From a virus: 21,091 nt of DNA. This document shows positions 687-21,091 of the stretch, in pieces (the first letter of the stretch is position 1; every line of letters begins with the position of its first letter). The position numbers were made by a program, and so were the translations under genes. Below the pieces are notes generated by a model that was not told where the DNA came from, did not search any database, and worked only from the letters and a program-made list of their open reading frames with translations. The stretch covers positions 1 through 21,091 of IMG/VR virus record IMGVR_UViG_3300008117_000417, one strand, 5' to 3'.

Positions 687-2525
687 TTAAGATAATGTTA
701 CTGTTTGGAAGTTCTTAACTGATACTCTGATATCTTTGTTAGGGTATCTTATTTGATATACCTGATTTGGTTGTGCGAAAATTGTATCATCGACAGGACC
801 AATTGCCCTTGTTTCAGGGTTAGAATATACCATTGATGTTTCAGCAGATGAATACTGTCCTCCAACCTCATTAAACACATCAACACTTGTAACAGTCAAT
901 ACTCCATTTGAATTTTGTATTATACTCTTCAGCTCTGATAGATATACGTTCTGACCAAGTTGTCTTGTCTGTGGGTTAAAGTAAGATGAGACTTTATCGA
1001 TTACGTCAGAAATAACTTGTCCTGAGTTTTGTGCGGAGTCTAAAACAATTGAAACATCCACACTCAAATCAATAACTTCAGCACTTAAGATTGAAATATA
1101 ATCATTCATCATTCTATAGTTAGAAAGATAGTTTGCTATGTTTTGTCTCAAAGTATTCGAGACAATACTCGTTAACTTACCTGATGTATCATATGATAAT
1201 ATTTGAATCAAAATTTTATTATCGTTTTCAGTGATTGATACCTTAGCAGGAGCACCGTATTGTGATGGCATGTTTCTCAATATTGACTCATAGTCTTGAA
1301 CTGTTACCGCTCTTTTCTGTGCCGCGAAGTTAAAAGAGACGTAGTTTCTAATTTCTTCTAAAGAAGGAACACCTGCACCACCGATAGCCGCTGTAACGTT
1401 ATTACATCTTAAAGAGTTTACCACCGCAGAGTTTGTATTCTCTGAAGGTCCATTAACAAAGAAAGTTACTGTTCCAACTTGGTTGATAATGTTAGTTCCT
1501 AAGTTTGTCGCTAAACCACCACCAACTCTATATTGAACGAACAGTGTTGAGTTAGGTGTCAACGCAGAACCTAATGAAAGGTTATTTGAATATTTTTGTA
1601 AGTCCAATGTTGCACCAACTGTTGTGAATTGGTCTAAAGCATCTTGTGCTGTGTTCGTTCCTCCACCAAAAGTCATTTTCTTAAATCCTTCAGGTGTAAA
1701 TTCTGTTATAAATCTATTCTGAGTTTGAATATATCTACCAACTTTAATACCTGGTTGGTCTGATACTTTTGTTGGGTCTTCAACAAATACTCTATCTTCC
1801 GCTAAAGCATCTACTTCATACCATCTGTTCTCTAATCCTAAGAATTCAGCGGTTGTTGGAACGTTGGTATATTGTGTTCCGTTTTTCAACAACACACTTG
1901 TGATACCTAATACGTTCTTTTCAGGTAAGAATAATTCAAAGAAAGGTTTTACATCGTTTGGTGTAATAACTCTTTTGAATACTTTTGTAATACCATTAAC
2001 AACAACTTCTCTTTTTGTTATTGTGTAGTTGATAAGAACTCCGTTGGCATTAAAGTTTGGTATTTTAAGTCTATTAGGAAATCCCTCTGAGTTGTAAGGT
2101 GATGCAAAATCAATATCGTTTACATTTTCAAAAACGATACCCGCACCAATAACCTGAGAACCTCTTAATAATGTTCCCAAATATCTCTCATCTTCTTTAT
2201 CACCAAACGCTGGAACTGTAATTGAGAAATCAACCAAAGCAACGGATGGTCTTTGTCCCGGTATTTTTAAACCATAGGTTCTGGCGATGTTATAGATTGA
2301 TGATTTTTGTTGTGCATATTGAAGAACAGTTTCTTGGATACTTCTATCAATCTGGTAGTTAAGGTTATCCGCAATCGCCGCATTCAAATCAATGAAAACC
2401 GAGAATACTGAGGCGTCATTAAAATCTTGAATTAATTCAGGATAATACGTTCTTACGTAATTGAGAAGTTCGGTTCTTACTGCCTGATAATCTCTTGTAG
2501 TATATGATATTTTACGGTTTGCCAT
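687..2525 (-). CDS. gp6: Baseplate wedge protein gp6 (baseplate J-like)
   Basis: This 612-aa protein is close to the ~660 aa of T4 gp6, which forms the wedge ring that joins baseplate wedges and changes shape on sheath contraction. The N-terminal ~95 residues (SYTTRDYQAVRTELLNYVRT, then FNDASVFSVFIDLNAAIADNL) are the helical start typical of gp6/baseplate J-like proteins. A GSQVIGAGIVFEN segment lies near residues 121-133. The stretch at ~385-430 (SLEEIRNYVSFNFAAQKRAV, then TVQDYESILRN) is the characteristic J-family 'A..R.vt..DY..l' segment. It starts at ATG 2523-2525, 5 bases after the gp25 stop codon, so the two are almost certainly co-transcribed and probably coupled. The gp25-gp6 order is the same as in other contractile tails. 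No Shine-Dalgarno is visible; the upstream sequence is ATTTAACATAG. Confidence 0.93.
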   Translation of the reverse strand: MANRKISYTTRDYQAVRTELLNYVRTYYPELIQDFNDASVFSVFIDLNAAIADNLNYQIDRSIQETVLQYAQQKSSIYNIARTYGLKIPGQRPSVALVDFSITVPAFGDKEDERYLGTLLRGSQVIGAGIVFENVNDIDFASPYNSEGFPNRLKIPNFNANGVLINYTITKREVVVNGITKVFKRVITPNDVKPFFELFLPEKNVLGITSVLLKNGTQYTNVPTTAEFLGLENRWYEVDALAEDRVFVEDPTKVSDQPGIKVGRYIQTQNRFITEFTPEGFKKMTFGGGTNTAQDALDQFTTVGATLDLQKYSNNLSLGSALTPNSTLFVQYRVGGGLATNLGTNIINQVGTVTFFVNGPSENTNSAVVNSLRCNNVTAAIGGAGVPSLEEIRNYVSFNFAAQKRAVTVQDYESILRNMPSQYGAPAKVSITENDNKILIQILSYDTSGKLTSIVSNTLRQNIANYLSNYRMMNDYISILSAEVIDLSVDVSIVLDSAQNSGQVISDVIDKVSSYFNPQTRQLGQNVYLSELKSIIQNSNGVLTVTSVDVFNEVGGQYSSAETSMVYSNPETRAIGPVDDTIFAQPNQVYQIRYPNKDIRVSVKNFQTVTLS

Positions 2526-2530
2526 CTATG

Positions 2531-3004
2531 TTAAATATTGATAATTATAAAATCACTCTCACTAAATGTTTGTGAATTTGTTGCATAATCTATTTTGATT
2601 TTTGCAGTGTAATCTGCAGTTCCCTTACCGGGTAATCTATAAATGTCATACATTTTAGCATCACCAACTGTTACAGTATTTGTTTGAGTATCTGATTCAT
2701 TTGCTGGGTCAGCAGGTTCTATGGTTATTTTATTAACTAATAGATTTGGCATGTATCTTTGGATAGAATCCCTAATGTCAGCCTCAATAGCACTAAACGT
2801 TAATCCGTCAAAGGGTTCGAATACAAATTCATAAAGTCTTGTTCCAAAATCAGGAAGATAATATCTTGAACCTTTTCTTGTTAACAATAAATGAATTAAG
2901 TCAGCCCTAATTTCTTGTCTTTGAAATTCGGTTAGTTGTAAATAGTCCCCTCTCGTAGAATCCTGAAATGGGAAATTCAATCCATATGTAACTCCATCTG
3001 CCAT
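2531..3004 (-). CDS. gp25: Baseplate wedge protein gp25 (GPW/gp25 family)
   Basis: This 157-aa protein belongs to the gp25-like baseplate wedge family (T4 gp25 is about 132 aa). That family seeds sheath assembly in phages and is conserved in type VI secretion (TssE). Residues 31-64 hold the core signature: a helix EIRADLIHLLLTRKGSRYYL followed by PDFGTRLYEFVFEP, matching the family's 'L.t..Ger...P.fG..l...vFep'. The C-terminal beta-rich part (TADYTAKIKIDY) fits as well. It starts at ATG 3002-3004, 20 bases after the DUF5522 stop. A TATATTTAT element lies only a few bases before the ATG, so part of the transcription may start very close to, or upstream of, this gene. No Shine-Dalgarno is visible. 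Confidence 0.93.
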   Translation of the reverse strand: MADGVTYGLNFPFQDSTRGDYLQLTEFQRQEIRADLIHLLLTRKGSRYYLPDFGTRLYEFVFEPFDGLTFSAIEADIRDSIQRYMPNLLVNKITIEPADPANESDTQTNTVTVGDAKMYDIYRLPGKGTADYTAKIKIDYATNSQTFSESDFIIINI

Positions 3005-11355: not shown

Positions 11356-14300
11356 TTAGACGTATGTCAGTGGTGGTGTTAGTGTTATTATACTATATTG
11401 ATTATTTGGTTGTAGATTATTACTACTTGTCATCGTTATGTTATATCGGACACCAGGAATCGCATTGGCTATGGTCGGAACCGAGAATTTAAGTTTGGTG
11501 CTTCCTATAATTTGAATAGACCTTATATCTACAGCAACTCCATCAACAAATATTTCTCTAACAAACTCAAGGTTCGTTCCGTTAACCGTTATGATTGTTC
11601 CTGTGGACGCTGTTAATGGTGAGTATGAAGATACGGTTGTTGGTGGACATGTTGGTGTTGGAGCCGGTGTATTTCCTTGACTTTGTGGTTCTTGTGGTTT
11701 TTGTTGTTCTTCCACAACTACAGCTCCTCTTAATCCATTTTGAGCGGCACTCAAACCAGCAGCTATAAACAAATCACCAATGTCTTTATACCTTTGTTTG
11801 TCTTTCTCATATTCCTCTGATGACATACTATCAACTGGGAACGATGTCACATAATATTTCAAAATACCTCCTTGGTCTTGAATTTCATTAATTCTACTTC
11901 CAATAACATTTTTCATAAATGTGAGATATGAGTCAAGACTTTTAAATCTTGCTGCCGGTAGTTGCTTAAGACCACCAAGAGTTCTTGTGTTGACACAAAA
12001 GAAAGAATTTTGAATAAAATTTTCGGTCTGTGAGTAATTGTCCTTATCCAAAGTAATAAGACCGTAGTTATAATCCCAACTTGAAAACTGACCTGTATCT
12101 GAAAGGCTCTTACCGTAAGCCCTAACATAACTAATCATATAGATTATAGTTTGTAATGCAACATTATTAGGTGCTGATGCCTTGATAGCATCTGCAAAGT
12201 CTTTCTGACTTATGGTTGTTTGTGAAACACCAGTTGTTACCCATGAAATGTAAGAAGAATCCAAATTAGCGCTACATGAGTTTTGAGCAGCTAAAGAATT
12301 TTCATCAGCATCTTGAACGACGTTGTTCGCAGTCGCTTGAGTTGTTGTTCCTTGTGTCGTTGGTTGGTCTGTTTTATTAACAACTAACGCCTCAATTTTA
12401 GTAAGAAGATTTTGATTTATAGACTGAATGAAGTTATCTATTGGTGGTAAATCATATACCCCTTGTCTAACTCCTTCAAACTCAGTGATGAAATTTCCCG
12501 CACTAATTGTATGAGAAACACTTGTAATCATGTATGGACCGTTAAACATTGGAACGTGTCTCAAATTGAAATACATTGTAGGTTGAATTAGAGCATTTCC
12601 TAATGCGGTGACAGAACAGGTATAACTTCTACCCTTATAGTAATTGTATAAACTGGCGTTTTGGTTTCCTACGGTTCTTGTGTTTGTTTGATTAGCCATT
12701 TCAAGAACTGATTGAATTGACTCTGAAGTTGCTTTTCCGTTGTCTTGACCAACACTAAACGATGAGAATATGTTTTGATTTCTTATTCCAATATCAACGT
12801 TAAATCCAACACACTTGTTTGAAATCGCGTAGTCAGTTTTTCCTAGTTGGTCCTCCAATAAAGGAACCTCACTACTTCTTCTAAACTCAAAAGAGTCATC
12901 TCCATATCCTGAAACAATATTCGGTAATTTTAGGTGACCTGAAGGCTTACCAACATAGAAACAAACCATCTTAGGTCCAGACTTTCTATAATCTACATTT
13001 CTAAAAGTTCCCCACAAATTATCAGCAAACTCCAATGAACCCTCAGGACTTGGGACCGTCAATCCATCTACATCTTGGACATTATAAAAGTTGACATATG
13101 CAGGAAGTGGCATAACCGTGAAATTATTTTTCATCAGAATTCCACTTATCAAGGTGTAGACAGACATCCCCTCGTTGAGATAGTTCTTGTTCAACATATT
13201 TTTTATGTCAAATATGTCCAATATAATAGTATCACCAATATTTCTTGAAGCTCTATCCAAAAATAAAATGTCTTCGAAAAGCGTTTTAGTTTTGTAGTCA
13301 GAACCAGCAATCCACTTGTCGTTCAATGTTTTGAAAACCTCATATGTTTCGACCTTACCCTGCATACTTTGAATCTGTGAATTAATTGTTGCTTCGGTTG
13401 GTTCTGAAACATTAGGTAATCCGGCTTTAAAACCAGCAATAACTTGGTTTAACAATAAATCTTGATAAGTGTTGAGACCATTCAAATAGGTATTCAATTG
13501 ACCTTTGAAAGTCGAGGCATTTAAACTTGGGTTAAGAAGTTTTTGTGTTGCATACATCTTAATTAGTTTCGAACACAAAACGATGTTTTCAGTCGTAAAT
13601 CCAATATTATTATCCGGAAAAAAATCTGTAATGTAAGAACCATTATCTTTGTATTCTAATTCTCGTATCGTTGAAAAACCAACCTCTTTCTCAAGTGCTC
13701 TCCATTCATTTGGATATCTCTGTCTCGATTGGGCTAAGGTAACGTTTCCACCTCTTGTGGGGACGCTGTTCAAAACATATGGTGTGAATCTGATTGGACT
13801 AACAACTCTTTGAACTGAATTCTGATAACTCACATAAGAATCGAATATTCTTCTACTATAATTTGAAGGATTACCGTTTCTCAAGACTACATCATATTGC
13901 ATGAACCCTTTAATTTGTGAATTGAAATTGTCAAATTGTTTTGTAATTGTATCTTGAAAAAGTATTTCAACTTTGTTGGGTGGGTTGCCGCTCGGAATAG
14001 TTGGAAATACTGTCATTGTGCTTCTCATAAAACTTTGGAAATTTCTGAAATTTGAATCCATCTGAATAACAGTCGAATCTATCGAAGCTTGATTTATTCT
14101 ATAAGATACATTTGTAATTGGTTTACAATAATTCAAAAATTCTTGTTCCATTAAGTTCAATGTCTTAGCATCAAAAACAGCAAATATTTCTTCAATTTTA
14201 CTATATCCTGAAATAGAATTTAGAAGCATCGGAGATACCGCATCTTTAGCTGGAATATAAGTAATATACTCGTTATAAAGTGGTTTTTTTATTTCATCTG

Positions 14301-17300
14301 AGTTGAAGTATCCATAGTTTGGTGCGGACCATAAAGTTCTTACTGACCCGTTATACATGGATGGATTCGATGTCAAGTTAACTACGGTGGTTGCTTGAGT
14401 TTCTTTGTTCAAACATTCGAATTTAGTTTGATTCAAATTTACTCCGAAAGATGGAATAATATAATAATCATCGTCTAACTTTGAAGTAGTTGCTGGTACA
14501 CAAACGTTAGGTGTCGTAAAGGCGTCATTTATGTTCTTTGGAATTAAAACAGACCATGTTGATAAAGATAAACTAACACCATTTTGTGATGTGTTAATTT
14601 TTGAGTTAGGGAATGGATACAACAACATTCCATCGTTGATGGACGATTGTATTTCCGATGATGTGTAATTTTTATAAAGATTCGAACCGTTGTAAAAATA
14701 ATTGAAGTCATTCACCAACTTCGGATAGAACCCTGGTTGAATTTTAATTTGTTGGCTGTTTTGTGTTTGTAATTGTATTGTAATATTGTCCAAAGTGTCC
14801 TTCAACTTTACATCATATTGTTTACCCACATTATTTGTAATCGGGTCATAGTTATTGATGTAATCAAAATTCTTCCACACACTATCCAAGATATCCACAT
14901 TATCATCAACGTATTTTTTATATCTATGCCAAACCGAACCCAATTTCAAAACCCAAGCATATGGCATTTTGTGTATCGCCCCAAACTTATTGAACACTGA
15001 TGCAATATAATCCAATTCGGTTGCTTGACCCTGAGTTTTATATTTCTCTCTCAAAGTCCCCAATGGAAGTGAATTCAAAAATAAATAAGCAGCCGTAACG
15101 TAGGGATATGTGTTTCCTGTTCTATCATTTTCAACACCCTGCTGAATTGCGTTTGTAAAATACGGCGTGTTCAATATAGATGTTGACTTTCTAGCCGGTA
15201 GTGCACCCGATGGAGAACTGTATAAAGAAAAACCTTCTGTTGGTATAAATTCACTAGGTTTTCTTTGTGTGTAGAATTCATTCAAAGTTAATTGTGCAGT
15301 TTCTATTGGTTGAACTAAAAATTGCGGTTTAGTAACATTTAAATATGAAAAATTCGTAACAGGTCTATTGGTAGTGTAGTCATATATGTTTTCAAAGTTT
15401 GAAAGTTGATTTCTATCGGTGAAAACTTTCAAACTTCTGTTTGTGTTATAAACTTGTTGTTGTTGACTCACATCACTATTTGCCAAATTTTTAGAATTCC
15501 ATTCGTAATTTCTGAAAGGATATGTATCGATAATCAAAGGGTCATTGGGCGCTTCTTTTGCCAATTGTAACAACTCTCCTTTATTAACATTTACCTGTGG
15601 TTCTAACCCTAATTCGTCCGTTCCTAAAATAGTAAATGGACTTTCAATTTCAGCTTTGATATACGGTGTTATAAAAAAGTCTCTTATAAAATCTTGCCAA
15701 GATTTTCCTGTCCCTTCATTTGAATATTCTCTAAGATAACTTATAAAATTAGTAGACGTGTATGGTGTGTTTTTCAAATCAAACGCCAACAACGGTGCGT
15801 TTGTTGAAACAGAGACAACGATGTTGTTTGTGTCCGCAGCCTTATTTAAATTAACAATTTGGTTTTGTTGATTTGATGTCCCCCTTATGAAATTTGAATA
15901 ATGAGATGTCACAAATTGTCTTTCCCAAATCTCATATAAAAACTTTAGTATTTCTTTATTTGAAAATGGAATGTTTGTTTGTGGAAACTCAATAGCATTT
16001 ATACTAATTAAAGGTGTTGTCTTTTGGCTTTCAATCGGAGTTTGTGATGTAGGGACTGAAAACTTTTGATTCAAACCTTTCATATATTCCTCAACAAATT
16101 CTACCTCGGGCCAACTTTCGAACAAATATCCTTGAGTCAAGTCCACAACTGATGGGTCTCCAAGATATGTCAATTGAAATCTACCTTTTTTGTCATCGGG
16201 GGATTCAACAAAAAATGAAGGCCAAGGATAAACAGGTTCCTCTGCTGTCGACAGTCCTTGATTCAAGGTCGCCGCGTTTCTAGCAATGTTAACATTATTT
16301 CTTACCTCTATGTTTGGTGCTGAAGATACGTTGTTTTGTATTACCTGTTTCCTTACTGGGTCGGTTTTCACGTTCCAAGCATTTATATGAACATCATCTA
16401 AAAGTCTTAAGAATCCTTCAGTGTTTGCCATAATTACCGCTATAATGTTCCTTGCGGTAGGATTGAATCCGATACCTAACGATTGACTTTGAATTCGGTT
16501 CTTCAAATCTTGGCTTATAGCCGCCTCAAACTCTTGAAGCTTTTTGTTTGCCTCTGTCGTAATTTGATTTATTGTCTGAATAAATCGATTCTTTCCTTCG
16601 AATACGAATAATGGTGGGTCCGTTTTTTTCTGATTTCCATCTATTTTTTCTTCTCTTGGGGTGACTTTAAGTTCTATCTGCTGTTTGACTTGTTGTTCTT
16701 GTTGAGTAGTTGGTTTGACCACACCTAAGAACTGTTGAGTTGTCTTGGTTAAATTAACATTATTAATGTTAAAGGTGTCCTTCAACATATCATAACCCAA
16801 ATTATTTAATTTAATTTCAGAAGGTTGTCCAACACCAAACGTGGGATTTTCAGTTAAAATTGAAAGATACTTTGTAAAAATCCCTTTTAGTTCAGTAATC
16901 GCCACCTCTTCTTGTGTTAGGTTATTGAATAAATTAGACTTAAAAAAATAAATTCTTGTGTTATTATCTAAAACAATAGCCTTCGGGTCTAAGTATTTGA
17001 AGAACCAACTACTATTGTTACCATAAACCTCTTTTTGAAATTCTGTAACTGATTTCAAATAATTTCTAGCGTTGGTTAGTGGTTCTACGTTTACCTTTGG
17101 GTATGAGTTGACAATCTCCTGTTGAAATGTATCAAACTTATTAATCAATTGCATTAAGGTAAGTTCAGGAAAATCAGGAGGTATTAACCCTTTTGATTTA
17201 TATTCACTGTAAACTTCAACAATTTTTTGATAACCTTTTTCGCTCACAAAACTGGCGGAGGTAGACGTTGACGCCTTTGATGGGTCGGTGTTAACATTAT

Positions 17301-18162
17301 TAGTTTGAATGTTACTCTGTTGGGCTTGTAAGTTTTGGTTGGTTGTTGAGCTATTCGATGAGACGTCACTATTGTTAATATTATATCTCTTACCATACAT
17401 GTGTGGTGTCGCAATCAAGTGTGATATCGAAATCTCATTCAAAACATTAAACTTAAATCCTTTGAACTCTAAACTAACCGTGTAGTTACCAGTCGAACTG
17501 TTGAATCTCGCGTTGAACTTTTCTAAGTTAAGTTGATATCTGATTGCCTGACCATAATAACCTTTGAGGGTCAAATAGAATTGTGGGTAAGGTAAATTGA
17601 AGAAGGCAGCATAAGGTGAGTTGTTACCTAACTGAAACAAGGCTTTCCCTTGAACATCTTCAAGTTCTATTGATACGGTTGGAATAAAAGATGATGAAAC
17701 TTTTACATTGATACTTGTGATACCTAATAATCCATTATCTACAACATTTTCTTGGTCGACTACTGTGGCTTGTGTAAACGCTTTTGAACCATTTTGACTT
17801 AGATTAACCCTACTTAATGGTTGATTAGTTGCTTGGGATTGTAATGCGTTTTTACCTGTTAACTCATCATAGTATCCTGTTCCAAAATAATTGTTTTGAC
17901 CAGGTCTTAGAAAATTAATTTTGGCAATAGATACAGTTTGTCTGTTACTGGTACCAGGTGCCGCACCAACAAGTAACTTTGTCCTTGGCAACACATCCGC
18001 CTCAAGATTCGCATACATGATGAGATTTTCATGGTCAACCAATCTTTCATAAACTTTACCGTCATTATTTATTGTTCGGTTCGGGTCAACAAGTATGATG
18101 TTATTATAGTCAAATTCAACATATATGTTACCGTTGTTATCCGCTTGAATGTTACCTGCCAT
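11356..18162 (-). CDS. Giant baseplate hub-like protein with C-terminal IPT/TIG domain
   Basis: This 2268-aa protein is the largest gene in the window. Residues ~141-247 (GITSINVKVSSSFIPTVSIE, then LPYPQFYLTLKGYYGQAIRY and TGNYTVSLEFKGF) look like the first barrel of a hub/tail-tube fold. Residues ~1830-1910 (YTCSVTALGNALIQPTMYFN then NGPYMITSVSHTISAGNF and EFEGVR) look like the end of a gp27/VgrG-type hub: '..pg..v.l....f.G.Y.it.v.H.i..g.f.t'. Between them lie ~1,550 residues I cannot assign, with Gln/Asn/Thr-rich linkers at ~262-300 and ~490-515. Residues ~1960-2130 (helical, with WDYNYGLITLD and RFKSLDSYLTFMKNVI) faintly resemble lysozyme-like cell-wall hydrolases. After a Gln/Pro linker, ~2171-2266 form an IPT/TIG domain (SPLTASTGTIITVNGTNLEF; VDGVAVDIRS; FSVPTIANAIPG). 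The ATG lies inside the end of the 107-aa gene (11-base overlap), so translation is coupled. Hub identity is likely, the rest is inference. Confidence 0.75.
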   Translation of the reverse strand: MAGNIQADNNGNIYVEFDYNNIILVDPNRTINNDGKVYERLVDHENLIMYANLEADVLPRTKLLVGAAPGTSNRQTVSIAKINFLRPGQNNYFGTGYYDELTGKNALQSQATNQPLSRVNLSQNGSKAFTQATVVDQENVVDNGLLGITSINVKVSSSFIPTVSIELEDVQGKALFQLGNNSPYAAFFNLPYPQFYLTLKGYYGQAIRYQLNLEKFNARFNSSTGNYTVSLEFKGFKFNVLNEISISHLIATPHMYGKRYNINNSDVSSNSSTTNQNLQAQQSNIQTNNVNTDPSKASTSTSASFVSEKGYQKIVEVYSEYKSKGLIPPDFPELTLMQLINKFDTFQQEIVNSYPKVNVEPLTNARNYLKSVTEFQKEVYGNNSSWFFKYLDPKAIVLDNNTRIYFFKSNLFNNLTQEEVAITELKGIFTKYLSILTENPTFGVGQPSEIKLNNLGYDMLKDTFNINNVNLTKTTQQFLGVVKPTTQQEQQVKQQIELKVTPREEKIDGNQKKTDPPLFVFEGKNRFIQTINQITTEANKKLQEFEAAISQDLKNRIQSQSLGIGFNPTARNIIAVIMANTEGFLRLLDDVHINAWNVKTDPVRKQVIQNNVSSAPNIEVRNNVNIARNAATLNQGLSTAEEPVYPWPSFFVESPDDKKGRFQLTYLGDPSVVDLTQGYLFESWPEVEFVEEYMKGLNQKFSVPTSQTPIESQKTTPLISINAIEFPQTNIPFSNKEILKFLYEIWERQFVTSHYSNFIRGTSNQQNQIVNLNKAADTNNIVVSVSTNAPLLAFDLKNTPYTSTNFISYLREYSNEGTGKSWQDFIRDFFITPYIKAEIESPFTILGTDELGLEPQVNVNKGELLQLAKEAPNDPLIIDTYPFRNYEWNSKNLANSDVSQQQQVYNTNRSLKVFTDRNQLSNFENIYDYTTNRPVTNFSYLNVTKPQFLVQPIETAQLTLNEFYTQRKPSEFIPTEGFSLYSSPSGALPARKSTSILNTPYFTNAIQQGVENDRTGNTYPYVTAAYLFLNSLPLGTLREKYKTQGQATELDYIASVFNKFGAIHKMPYAWVLKLGSVWHRYKKYVDDNVDILDSVWKNFDYINNYDPITNNVGKQYDVKLKDTLDNITIQLQTQNSQQIKIQPGFYPKLVNDFNYFYNGSNLYKNYTSSEIQSSINDGMLLYPFPNSKINTSQNGVSLSLSTWSVLIPKNINDAFTTPNVCVPATTSKLDDDYYIIPSFGVNLNQTKFECLNKETQATTVVNLTSNPSMYNGSVRTLWSAPNYGYFNSDEIKKPLYNEYITYIPAKDAVSPMLLNSISGYSKIEEIFAVFDAKTLNLMEQEFLNYCKPITNVSYRINQASIDSTVIQMDSNFRNFQSFMRSTMTVFPTIPSGNPPNKVEILFQDTITKQFDNFNSQIKGFMQYDVVLRNGNPSNYSRRIFDSYVSYQNSVQRVVSPIRFTPYVLNSVPTRGGNVTLAQSRQRYPNEWRALEKEVGFSTIRELEYKDNGSYITDFFPDNNIGFTTENIVLCSKLIKMYATQKLLNPSLNASTFKGQLNTYLNGLNTYQDLLLNQVIAGFKAGLPNVSEPTEATINSQIQSMQGKVETYEVFKTLNDKWIAGSDYKTKTLFEDILFLDRASRNIGDTIILDIFDIKNMLNKNYLNEGMSVYTLISGILMKNNFTVMPLPAYVNFYNVQDVDGLTVPSPEGSLEFADNLWGTFRNVDYRKSGPKMVCFYVGKPSGHLKLPNIVSGYGDDSFEFRRSSEVPLLEDQLGKTDYAISNKCVGFNVDIGIRNQNIFSSFSVGQDNGKATSESIQSVLEMANQTNTRTVGNQNASLYNYYKGRSYTCSVTALGNALIQPTMYFNLRHVPMFNGPYMITSVSHTISAGNFITEFEGVRQGVYDLPPIDNFIQSINQNLLTKIEALVVNKTDQPTTQGTTTQATANNVVQDADENSLAAQNSCSANLDSSYISWVTTGVSQTTISQKDFADAIKASAPNNVALQTIIYMISYVRAYGKSLSDTGQFSSWDYNYGLITLDKDNYSQTENFIQNSFFCVNTRTLGGLKQLPAARFKSLDSYLTFMKNVIGSRINEIQDQGGILKYYVTSFPVDSMSSEEYEKDKQRYKDIGDLFIAAGLSAAQNGLRGAVVVEEQQKPQEPQSQGNTPAPTPTCPPTTVSSYSPLTASTGTIITVNGTNLEFVREIFVDGVAVDIRSIQIIGSTKLKFSVPTIANAIPGVRYNITMTSSNNLQPNNQYSIITLTPPLTYV

Positions 18163-18475
18163 AATAATAAAAATAATTTTCCAAAGCTCCTTTATAATCC
18201 TGTAATGATGGAATCAACGGGAATGGAACTACAAGTATTGCACCATCGTAGATATTGTTTTCTAAACCGCCAAATTGTGGATTGGCTTGTAATATTAACC
18301 AACCGAAATATGGAGAGTTGTAGAATTGTTGTGATACCTTATCCAATCTACTTTGTGCAATCTTATAAATGTATGTTTTGTCCGTAGTCTTTTGTGGAAT
18401 ATTCACATATGGAACTACAGTCTGCTCTCCATTTATAAGAAACTCACTATATCTATTATAATAAGGAAATCCCAT
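18152..18475 (-). CDS. gp53: LysM-like baseplate protein, gp53-type
   Basis: This 107-aa protein is probably a short counterpart of T4 gp53 (196 aa), the wedge protein with a LysM-like fold that clamps neighbouring wedges. Residues ~35-85 have the LysM-type pattern: YIYKIAQSRLDKVSQQFYNS, PYFGWLILQANPQFG, then IYDGAILVVPFP, i.e. 'D.vS..fY.sp.fgWlIl.aNp.i.d...i..G..L.iP'. That is also how phage gp53/LysM tail-assembly proteins read. No signal peptide. Its ATG overlaps the stop of the upstream OmpA-like gene by one base (TAATG), and its own end overlaps the start of the giant gene by 11 bases; the three are one translationally coupled unit. An alternative is a gpX/LysM tail protein like those of P2-type phages. 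Confidence 0.75.
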   Translation of the reverse strand: MGFPYYNRYSEFLINGEQTVVPYVNIPQKTTDKTYIYKIAQSRLDKVSQQFYNSPYFGWLILQANPQFGGLENNIYDGAILVVPFPLIPSLQDYKGALENYFYYYGR

Positions 18476-21091
18476 TAGTTAAGTTTTACTTTCGAAATAA
18501 ATATTGTTCCTTGGGGGTCGTTCCAAGTTGCTTTATCTGTCGATTGGTTTGTTGATGCTCCAAGAGCTTTGATTAATTTCTTTTCATTATCACTCGGATT
18601 AGTATTTAATTCATAATCAAATAGTCTAGTTTTACTTTGGAATGGTGTATATTTTATGAAATTCTTTAGTTTATTTGTTTCCATTTCATTTAAAAATGCT
18701 TGAGTCAACGCGTTTTCCTTTTCAAACAATGGTTTCGCAATACCAGTCCAATAATTATCAAACTCTTGGGATATGTTTGGATTACCATTACCCAACAACC
18801 TAGTGTTACCAATAATATTACCAATTAACGCATTTTTAAATGTTTGATAATTTTCACTTTTCAAATCATTCGATAATAACATATACTCTCTTTTGAATGG
18901 TAGTTTTGTAAACACATCATCTTTAGAATATTGATTGAATACAACACTTTCTAAGGATTTTGCTGTGGTATTTTCTTTCGTTTCACCATAAACCAAATTA
19001 CCTTTATAAGAGTTTCCTTGATAATTGAATTCTGTTGATGATGTTGACAGAGTATAAAACTCATTCAAATTTGTTTTTATTTTTTTAATATCATCGGTCA
19101 TTTCTATTTGGGTATTCGCAGCAGTGCTTCCAGCACTTACTTGAGTTGTCCCACTTACTTTATATAATTTTAAAAATCCATTTTTTTCTTGTAATCCATC
19201 AAGTTGAGGTGTTCCCAGTCCAGTATTATATGGTGCGGTATTTGCTCGACTTACAAATTGTAAATAAGTTTGTTGAGCATTTACCATGTCTTGATTTATT
19301 TTAGTGAGTGCATTTTGGAATGTTCCTTTTTTATTTTTGACATAATTAACAAAATTTTTTCTCAATTCTCTGATTGCCTTTTCGTTGAATTGTCTTTCTG
19401 TTCTTGTCATAAAAAACATAAAAGTATAAATTCTTGCACTGCTCCAATTTTGAAGTATAGCATTATTATATTGATTTAGAGCATCTTTACTCTTATTCAC
19501 AACAGTTTGGAAATATGTTTGTGTTGTTGTAACAAAATTATCCATAAATTGTTGATAAGATATTGTTCCGGTTTCTCCGCTTGCGGTCACTACCGTTGTT
19601 ATTCTATCACCAATCGTATTTTCGTTTGATTGCCCATTAAGATTTGGAGCCTGATTTACCGTTGGTGCCGCAGCTTGATTAACCAATTGTAAGAACTCTT
19701 TATCTAAAACCTTCAAACTATCATCAGTCACATCCGCTCTATCATCCCACATTTCAGTATTAGCATAATAGTTGAATGTTAACGCGTTTTGTAATTTATC
19801 AATTGACTCCTTCAATCCACTTCCCCCAACAAACTTGAATGACATCGTAATGTTTGCAATCATAGGTTGAACACCAATACCTTCAGGATTAATATCCAAA
19901 CTTTCATAAGAAATCTGAAGTCCATCAGGAATGATTTTGGTGTTATAAAAGTCTCCGATTCTCAACACTAATACTGGTGGTGCACCAAACGCAGTATTCA
20001 CCGCATCGTTAAATTGTAATTCTTGTTTTCCCCCAACTTCTTTAACCGTTGGTATTGTATCACCAGGTCTCATACATTGTTGTAAGAAGGTAAGTCTTGA
20101 GTTCAATCCTTCAGGGGTTGTTGAGTGAAACGCTGGTTGGAAGAACTTTAATTTCTCTTTCAGTGAATCAAAAACCATAGGGGTTTCTTCTTTGATAGTT
20201 TCAAAGTAATCACACTCAGATAGTAAAGTCCTTAAAACTCTTTTGGTTATGTTGTCAGGTTTTTTTATTTTAGTTTCAATATTTTGTCCTGATATTGGTC
20301 TTACGGGTTCGTTACCGGGTCCTCCCGCGGGTTGTGATGGTTGTGCGGGTTGTTGATTTGGAACACCTGATGTTGCAACTATTGATGAAATACTCACTCT
20401 TCTACATCCCATAGCACTCAATGAATATATTTGTGAATTGTTGTTAGCAGTTTCACTGTCATCACTATCGCTACAAGTAAAAGTAGTTTCAACAAATTTG
20501 CCTTCTTTTGGCTCCCATCTTTTAGCGTTCGCATTTTCACCCTTTGGGATTTGTTTAAACTTAATTCGTCCTAAATTAATAAACTTACTCAAAGATGGTT
20601 CTGATTGAAAGAATTTGATAACAGAGTCAATTCTTCTTTCGGATAATGTCAAATTATAAGGAGTAGTACCAGCACCAGACGCACTTCCTTCAAGTGTGAT
20701 TGTAACAATTCTATTTGGATTATTCTCCAAAGTACTAGCTAATTGAACAAAAAAATTATTTTGAACTTCATCATAGTTTTTGATAACAACATTTGAAAAG
20801 AAGTTTTGTAGGTCAGGTTTATTATAATTCGTGTTTCCCGTTTGACCTAAATAAATTGTATAGTATGATGGGTAACTAGATACCGTCCCTTTTACTGGGT
20901 CGTTATTTGGAAAATATAAAGAAAAGTTTTGGAATTGCTTCAAATCGTCGCTCGGTGTGTTTTGACTTGGCTCAGCTACCAATGTCGCTTGATTACCTAA
21001 GTTGTCTTTTCCAGTTGCAACACTATCCCTGACAAATCCTAATTGTTCTCTACTTAAATCACCTGAATTGATAATTTGTTGTAGTTCGTTT
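18475..21091 (-). CDS. Baseplate/tail protein with OmpA-like domain, 5' end outside window
   Basis: The reading frame is open to the right-hand window edge: 871 residues are visible and the true start lies outside. A TTG at 20980-20982 could be taken as a start, but the frame continues upstream (GDLSREQLGFVRDSVATGKD) without a stop, so that start is almost certainly wrong. Visible residues ~60-238 form an OmpA-like domain: VTITLEGSASGAGTTPYNLT followed by LSERRIDSVIKFF is the 'i.GhaS..G....N..LS.rRa..v..ff' peptidoglycan-binding core, and CRRVSISSIV its final strand. Residues ~365-450 (LVLRIGDFYNTKIIPDGLQI, IGVQPMIANITMSFKFVGG, NALTFNYYANTEMWDDRAD) resemble tail-tube/baseplate initiator proteins. 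A long helical region spans ~528-610. The rest is unassigned. The gp53-like gene follows with TAATG overlap. A baseplate part that touches the cell wall is a reasonable reading; the assignment of the tube-like part is inferred. Confidence 0.75.
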   Translation of the reverse strand, partial: NELQQIINSGDLSREQLGFVRDSVATGKDNLGNQATLVAEPSQNTPSDDLKQFQNFSLYFPNNDPVKGTVSSYPSYYTIYLGQTGNTNYNKPDLQNFFSNVVIKNYDEVQNNFFVQLASTLENNPNRIVTITLEGSASGAGTTPYNLTLSERRIDSVIKFFQSEPSLSKFINLGRIKFKQIPKGENANAKRWEPKEGKFVETTFTCSDSDDSETANNNSQIYSLSAMGCRRVSISSIVATSGVPNQQPAQPSQPAGGPGNEPVRPISGQNIETKIKKPDNITKRVLRTLLSECDYFETIKEETPMVFDSLKEKLKFFQPAFHSTTPEGLNSRLTFLQQCMRPGDTIPTVKEVGGKQELQFNDAVNTAFGAPPVLVLRIGDFYNTKIIPDGLQISYESLDINPEGIGVQPMIANITMSFKFVGGSGLKESIDKLQNALTFNYYANTEMWDDRADVTDDSLKVLDKEFLQLVNQAAAPTVNQAPNLNGQSNENTIGDRITTVVTASGETGTISYQQFMDNFVTTTQTYFQTVVNKSKDALNQYNNAILQNWSSARIYTFMFFMTRTERQFNEKAIRELRKNFVNYVKNKKGTFQNALTKINQDMVNAQQTYLQFVSRANTAPYNTGLGTPQLDGLQEKNGFLKLYKVSGTTQVSAGSTAANTQIEMTDDIKKIKTNLNEFYTLSTSSTEFNYQGNSYKGNLVYGETKENTTAKSLESVVFNQYSKDDVFTKLPFKREYMLLSNDLKSENYQTFKNALIGNIIGNTRLLGNGNPNISQEFDNYWTGIAKPLFEKENALTQAFLNEMETNKLKNFIKYTPFQSKTRLFDYELNTNPSDNEKKLIKALGASTNQSTDKATWNDPQGTIFISKVKLN

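Follow-up and report, generated by a model that had tools for sequence, protein, structure and literature searches.

The hubs of contractile phage tails usually span a few hundred residues, as an earlier note on this DNA had assumed and as the lengths of T4 gp27 (391 aa), P2 gpD (387 aa) and Mu gp44 (379 aa) bear out. In the Anabaena myophage A-1(L), the sections of PMC10966104 used here describe a protein, gp15, with lysozyme (residues 56-265), endoglucanase (266-430) and peptidase (736-899) domains, hydrolysis being reported for the latter two, and a LysM protein, gp16, that joins hub and wedge. In RcGTA, according to the excerpted text of PMC7296036, the domains of the T4 hub are divided between a hub protein and a 1304-aa megatron, which bears a big peripheral domain and a central domain that overlays a portion of the T4 hub.

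We analyzed a stretch of 21,091 nucleotides (the window) from IMG/VR virus record IMGVR_UViG_3300008117_000417, in which a single open frame on the minus strand (11356..18162), with an ATG start, encodes a protein of 2268 aa, about six times the usual length of a tail hub. We consider it likely that this protein serves as tail-tip hub in a large myovirus and that a very large, conserved insertion has expanded it. This reading draws on a second barrel (D2) recognized by fold and by a gpD-family profile, a first barrel (D1) recognized by fold, a gp53-like neighbor and a separately encoded spike candidate.

The giant protein resembles A-1(L) gp15 (8kea), as portrayed in the sections cited above, in combining a contractile-tail hub barrel with extra domains that include lytic-type folds, but it is about 2.5 times longer, its sole lytic-type fold has no acidic residue that is invariant, and its insert has no assigned fold. 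It shares D2 with P2 gpD through the PHROG_52 profile and with Mu and MuSo2 by fold, and differs from the hubs of T4, P2 and Mu in adding a large interior, a glucosaminidase-like part and an IPT/TIG domain. Like the RcGTA megatron, it is a large multi-domain tail-tip protein, whereas in the excerpted RcGTA account the hub domains are split over two proteins. Unlike in VgrG, D2 is followed, after a gap of 44 residues (1906 to 1951), by a glucosaminidase-type fold and a TIG domain and not by a gp5-type OB spike.

The giant frame and its relatives

The uninterrupted frame pointed out in the earlier note is real: complete relatives in IMG/VR comprise 98 distinct sequences, each a single protein of 2259-2618 aa. 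These derive from four scans, represented by the best 80 of 261, 425, 341 and 311 confirmed relatives, respectively; the most distant family members lie outside these best-80 sets, and shorter or split forms may occur among them. We examined 233 family loci, some from a contig taken at least twice. A query-like start was present in 211, and in 181 of these the frame also reached its stop codon within the available sequence, yielding the 98 distinct proteins. The 22 loci without a query-like start comprised 18 cut by a contig end, three of full size (L095, L147 and L234, with frames of 2442 aa from an alternative start) and one broken across frames. In L077 the longest frame is 1716 aa although the match covers the whole protein, which may reflect a frameshift or sequencing error.

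A chance joining or misassembly of neighboring genes might be suspected in a 21-kb virus contig, and in L077 the gene is indeed spread over different frames, but the 98 distinct relatives, all complete and all with this one frame, refute this explanation, and the 11-base overlap with the upstream gene is identical in 94 of 96 relatives; we assign an artefact a vanishingly small probability. A tail hub with an insert is a design that is stable across the relatives found.

Searches of 84,980 bacterial and archaeal genomes returned 49 pattern matches, none of which held, and confirmed no relative, and no match at E ≤ 1e-5 to the giant protein was found among 50,697 phage records. Whole-protein searches of the window protein against Pfam, PDB sequences and phage records returned nothing useful; matches to Chorion_2 (Pfam, E = 0.038) and to a single phage protein (E = 7) were taken as chance. 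The collections searched may omit records very close to the window. In the open-licence literature searched we did not find the family described, and the word 'hub' is absent from the main text of PMC9723584, on freshwater Bacteroidetes phages, and from the accessible portion of the moraphage paper PMC12619734. A Foldseek search of BFVD at E ≤ 1e-3 returned three viral proteins that match the C-terminal half; no hub function has been explained for any of them. They include the uncharacterized A0A6J5L837 (E = 4e-60, 31% identity over 1066 columns) and A0A8S5LAH1, named 'Lysozyme' in Myoviridae sp. ctPuP5 (E = 3e-9, 18% over 560 columns); with TM-scores by query as low as 0.33 and 0.09, respectively, these matches rest largely on sequence. 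A0A8S5LAH1 raises the possibility that this hub also has a distant form outside the giant-hub lineage.

Barrels at the two ends of the protein

The protein was modeled with AlphaFold2 as residues 1-1200 and 1069-2268, using 57 sequences each, with mean pLDDT values of 58.7 and 63.2, respectively. Neither model had a Foldseek match in the PDB at E ≤ 1e-3, and all VIA-align Z values were below 8 for both. In the first model, 31 of the 50 VIA-align rows (Z 3.9-5.0) cover an N-terminal tail-tube/hub-type barrel, D1 (residues 49-237; 17452..18018, minus strand), placing its end at 236-238, and the titles of all but one of these rows name phage, GTA, SaPI, monocin or T6SS tail, neck or baseplate chains. 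The best row was 6yeg_A (4.9 Å over 95 residues), and the remaining 19 match helices beyond D1. Model confidence over D1 is low (pLDDT 32-63 by blocks of ten), and HH comparison with gpD, Mu and T4 hub profiles gave no match, so that D1 is weakly identified, by its modeled fold, as a tail-tube/hub-type barrel.

In the second model, all ten VIA-align rows at about residues 1787-1906 (D2; 12445..12804, minus strand) are hubs, spikes or baseplates, with Z values of 5.6-7.2. The highest-scoring are pyocin R2 6u5h_A (Z 7.2, 7.9 Å, 105 residues), cyanophage A-1(L) 8kea_A (Z 6.7, 3.5 Å, 82 residues) and PVC 6j0m_A (Z 6.5, 7.6 Å, 111 residues), followed by the Anabaena and Algoriphagus systems (7b5h, Z 6.3, 2.3 Å, 70 residues; 7aef, Z 6.2, 2.3 Å, 69 residues) and by Pam3, Milano, Chi, MuSo2 and Mu rows at Z 5.6-5.9 (7yfz_t, Z 5.9, 3.3 Å, 76 residues; 8fqc_C1, Z 5.8, 2.6 Å, 72; 8vjh_A, Z 5.7, 3.0 Å, 76; 3cdd_B, Z 5.6, 3.1 Å, 76; 9ki1_G, Z 5.6, 2.9 Å, 76). 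The aligned chain ranges, such as 187-325 of the pyocin hub, indicate that D2, itself modeled at a low pLDDT of 31-60, corresponds to the second barrel of the hub. By a route that does not involve the models, an overlapping stretch (residues 1848-1928; 12379..12621, minus strand) matches positions 459-534 of the 677-position PHROG_52 profile at E = 1e-4, and P2 gpD matches the same profile at E = 1.3e-187. PHROG_52 was detected at E ≤ 0.1 in five of 19 family members, and in four of the five longer related records it matches the giant frame alone, the fifth having no match. HH comparison of D2 with gpD alone or with ten gpD/Mu hubs gave a weak signal, reaching a probability of at most 9% (P = 0.004), and neither Mu gp44 nor T4 gp27 gave a match. 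Together, the modeled fold and the PHROG_52 profile support the prediction of D2 as a hub C-terminal barrel. No real match came from HH profile comparisons between D1 and D2, among the segments, or between the segments and the giant protein encoded upstream; the matches between I1 and I2 and between D2 and I3 are products of overlapping segment cuts.

The two segments in which the earlier note had read hub-type strands fall mostly inside D1 (~141-247) and in D2 (~1830-1910). The fold comparisons support tail-type barrels near both ends, where it had proposed hub-type ones, with profile support absent for D1. Hub, tube and terminator proteins all occur among the D1 matches, D1 has no sequence support and both barrels are modeled at low confidence, all of which would suit a different tube-fold tail protein, for instance a distal-tail-like or fiber-network component, that merely carries a hub-like barrel. 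We think this rather unlikely, given that the D2 rows are hubs, spikes and baseplates, that the gpD family is matched and that a gp53-like gene lies directly upstream, and we retain the tail-tip hub as the preferred assignment.

For the analysis of conservation, 227 of the 233 loci (longest frame of at least 1900 aa) gave 120 unique sequences, or 121 with the window protein. Median pairwise identity was 0.69 in D1, 0.57 in the interior, 0.72 in D2, 0.37 in the glucosaminidase-like part and 0.31 in the tail, the tail figures coming from a single global alignment that gives low scores to tails it can hardly align. Interiors were more than 75% identical in 473 pairs, 147 of which had tails at least 30 points lower (e.g. 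0.96 versus 0.56). The barrels are thus the best-conserved regions and the C-terminal end the least conserved, as would be expected if a structural ring carried a cell-facing end that changes.

In a coevolution analysis by MI-APC (Neff 49), the top pair, 166-230, is consistent with a strand pair in D1, and pairs 1680-1806 and 1606-1819 may reflect contacts around D2; most of the remaining signal resembles gap or phylogeny noise, and D1-D2 pairs are absent from the 40 most enriched block pairs. The missing D1-D2 link would agree with barrels that sit in different rings or are swapped between chains, the insert then being a tether and not a lobe. RcGTA provides a precedent, with its hub and megatron sharing the T4 hub domains between two proteins in the excerpted text of PMC7296036. 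We hold such an arrangement to be unlikely and favor a single ring to which each chain would contribute both barrels.

The interior and the C-terminal domains

D1 and D2 are separated by 1,549 residues (238-1786), in close agreement with the ~1,550 of the earlier note. The interior (residues 265-1786, about 1,520 aa; 12805..17370, minus strand) has no assigned fold. Three interior profiles built from 22 sequences gave zero, three (E 0.24-0.7) and one (E 1.1) matches in PDB sequences, all taken as chance, and HH comparison with hub profiles gave no match. Helical hairpins are modeled with confidence at residues ~310-610, 1069-1200 and 1440-1570, with pLDDT mostly 70-90 for those at residues 345-565 (16468..17130, minus strand). 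No credible fold match was obtained for these helical parts, the aligner having barely probed regions outside the domains listed here. An IpaD/SipD-like helical arrangement at residues 345-565 (Z 4.5-5.9) was rejected, since helical bundles match by chance in such a range.

The stretch that leads into D2 (residues 1600-1786; 12805..13365, minus strand) is modeled at a pLDDT of 24-44 and is conserved to about the same degree as the barrels: the share of columns conserved in at least 98% of sequences is 0.40 over residues 1601-1700 and 0.28 over 1701-1800, compared with 0.33-0.35 over 1-200 and 0.36 over 1801-1900. On sequence grounds this stretch may be a linker domain of the hub itself, in which case the true insert would be nearer 1,340 residues.

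Beyond D2, the lysozyme-like part of the earlier note took shape as a glucosaminidase-type fold in a well-modeled stretch (residues 1951-2146; 11725..12312, minus strand). All four VIA-align rows there (Z 7.1-7.9), three of them starting at residue 1981 or later, show this type of fold: the AtlA catalytic domain 7qfu (Z 7.9, 3.6 Å, 134 residues), the T6SS effector 4kt3 (Z 7.4, 3.5 Å, 124), the peptidoglycan hydrolase 3vwo (Z 7.2, 3.6 Å, 130) and the amidase entry 5t1q (Z 7.1, 3.5 Å, 136). We take 7qfu and 3vwo to belong to the GH73 family and 4kt3 to be Tge2. The rows agree with a GH73-type fold, but Z values below 8 are also compatible with a common arrangement. While the fold is that of GH73 glucosaminidases, the site expected to hold the catalytic glutamate, placed at a helix end from the aligned ranges, is not acidic: all 121 sequences have C, S, T or A at position 2011 and Y at position 2012. 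No acidic residue is invariant across residues 1940-2149, where the highest D/E share at near-full occupancy is 0.89, at position 2119 near the end, and the Pfam Glucosaminidase profile did not detect the domain in the five long records. We read residues 1951-2146 as a predicted non-catalytic descendant of a glucosaminidase. Cysteines 1963 (12274-12276) and 2056 (11995-11997) are conserved throughout the alignment and perhaps form a disulphide.

The protein ends in the IPT/TIG domain that the earlier note had proposed (residues ~2172-2263; 11374..11649, minus strand), whose profile matches SGBP-B in the PDB at E = 8e-4 and whose model aligns to 7k44 with Z 7.0 (2.7 Å, 64 residues, 25% identity). 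Bacteroidetes surface glycan-binding proteins are among its best matches by sequence and by fold. Pfam TIG matched one of 19 family members, the window protein not being the one matched. This end is hypervariable among relatives. GTSGTSG-type linkers precede the TIG part in L031, L068 and L080, and Pfam Collagen gave weak matches in two of 19 members.

Neighboring genes and the proposed tail tip

Directly upstream of the hub gene, and overlapping its start by 11 bases, lies a 107-aa gene (18152..18475, minus strand) that matches the baseplate wedge subunit PHROG_7145 (E = 2.4e-4) and is referred to here as gp53-like. It occupies this position in 95 of the 96 relatives with enough DNA, and its product may be of LysM nature. 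In P2 and T4, in contrast, the genes preceding the hub are U (before D) and 51 (before 27), and neither phage has a gp53-like neighbor there. Further upstream comes a giant tail protein with an OmpA-like stretch (E = 1.7e-5, below the curated cut-off); the window covers its C-terminal part (18475..21090, minus strand), and the protein is complete in L002 (4703-9688, 1661 aa). The OmpA-like stretch is flanked by two better-conserved blocks, as if inserted in another tail protein, and 48 residues of the L002 protein are missing, in frame, from the window copy. Neither the 1661-aa nor the 107-aa protein had a match among phage records. At the other end, the window encodes a gp6/Baseplate_J-like wedge protein (687..2525, minus strand; PHROG_219, E = 5e-25, and Pfam Baseplate_J over the cut-off) and a gp25-like wedge protein (2531..3004, minus strand; Pfam GPW_gp25, E = 3.5e-13).

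All five longer records, including the query's own, encode a gpV/gp5-like spike candidate of about 506-610 aa as a separate gene, tens of kilobases from the hub gene. These candidates, which resemble gpV/gp5 at their start, vary in length (for instance L249 3192-4712, L250 3211-5037 and L251 3024-4553); PF04717 falls below the cut-off in three of the five records, and PHROG_430 gave E values of 0.0013-0.0033 in the two tested. A search for PAAR in the five records gave no match. With a spike candidate encoded elsewhere, the earlier suggestion that the giant protein forms a decorated spike is unlikely.

In L002, a tube protein (PHROG_4542) and a hub-annotated protein (PHROG_150) precede the giant upstream protein, and a 620-aa protein between the tube and hub genes could, as we read its sequence, be the tape measure. 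Several tail proteins are enlarged in this lineage: the sheath reaches 1070 aa (L253 10109-13321, on the 309-kb record of L038), with a PHROG sheath match confined to residues 857-1068. The same record (G001) contains at 275622-275930 a separate 252-aa frame with a Pfam Glucosaminidase match below the cut-off (E = 1.4e-4), possibly an endolysin.

The earlier note had left open whether the hub absorbed an insertion or several baseplate genes had fused. A fusion, with an interior derived from known wedge, spike or tape-measure proteins, would explain a size equivalent to several baseplate proteins combined, and the 1661-aa upstream protein and 1070-aa sheath are likewise enlarged. However, gp25, gp6, the gp53-like protein, tube, sheath and gpV/gp5-like protein are all encoded by separate genes, in the window or in related records, as is the candidate tape measure, and the three interior profiles have no convincing match in PDB sequences. 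We therefore regard a fusion as improbable, and an insertion into a hub fits the data.

Building on the domain identities (weakly so for D1) and the gene order, we infer the following arrangement. Three chains would form a ring of six barrels, two per chain, capping the tail tube. The gp53-like protein would tie this ring to the wedges, as the LysM protein gp16 does in the cited sections on A-1(L) (PMC10966104), and the separately encoded gpV/gp5-like spike would be seated below it. Between the barrels the insert would leave the ring as a large outward lobe, with a mass of about 170 kDa in each chain if a residue is counted as 110 Da, which makes half a megadalton for the trimer. Both the glucosaminidase-like domain and the TIG domain would hang towards the cell, where they may bind wall or surface glycans rather than cut them. 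A more tentative proposal, which we put forward as a possibility somewhat short of even, is that the insert constitutes a previously undescribed, lineage-wide structural module, its half-megadalton lobe on each hub trimer taking over part of a wedge or receptor-carrying role alongside a lytic domain turned to binding.

The window is a 21-kb fragment; bS21 (PF01165 over the cut-off) is encoded in three of five related records, which points to the freshwater Bacteroidetes phages discussed in the accessible text of PMC9723584. The giant-hub phages are probably large and probably infect Bacteroidetes. In the named relatives identified through gp6 (Flavobacterium phage immuto, Microcystis phage Mel-JY01 and LR756508), the largest nearby proteins, of 1265, 1336 and 1400 aa, respectively, had no match to the giant protein; those of immuto and Mel-JY01 presumably resemble, by motif, tail protein I-type chains.

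Hubs belong to the core of contractile injection machines, and in T4, P2 and Mu they stay under 400 residues. Hubs with extra domains are already known from A-1(L) gp15 and the RcGTA megatron, as far as the cited sections describe them, and the larger size is what is new here. The complete members studied here keep some 1,500 extra residues between their hub barrels, and the lineage thereby shows how large an insertion the ring may accommodate. The giant hub, so far unannotated, can mark a group of large phages that is well represented. It is also a target for cryo-EM and for designs in which cargo is loaded onto contractile tails.
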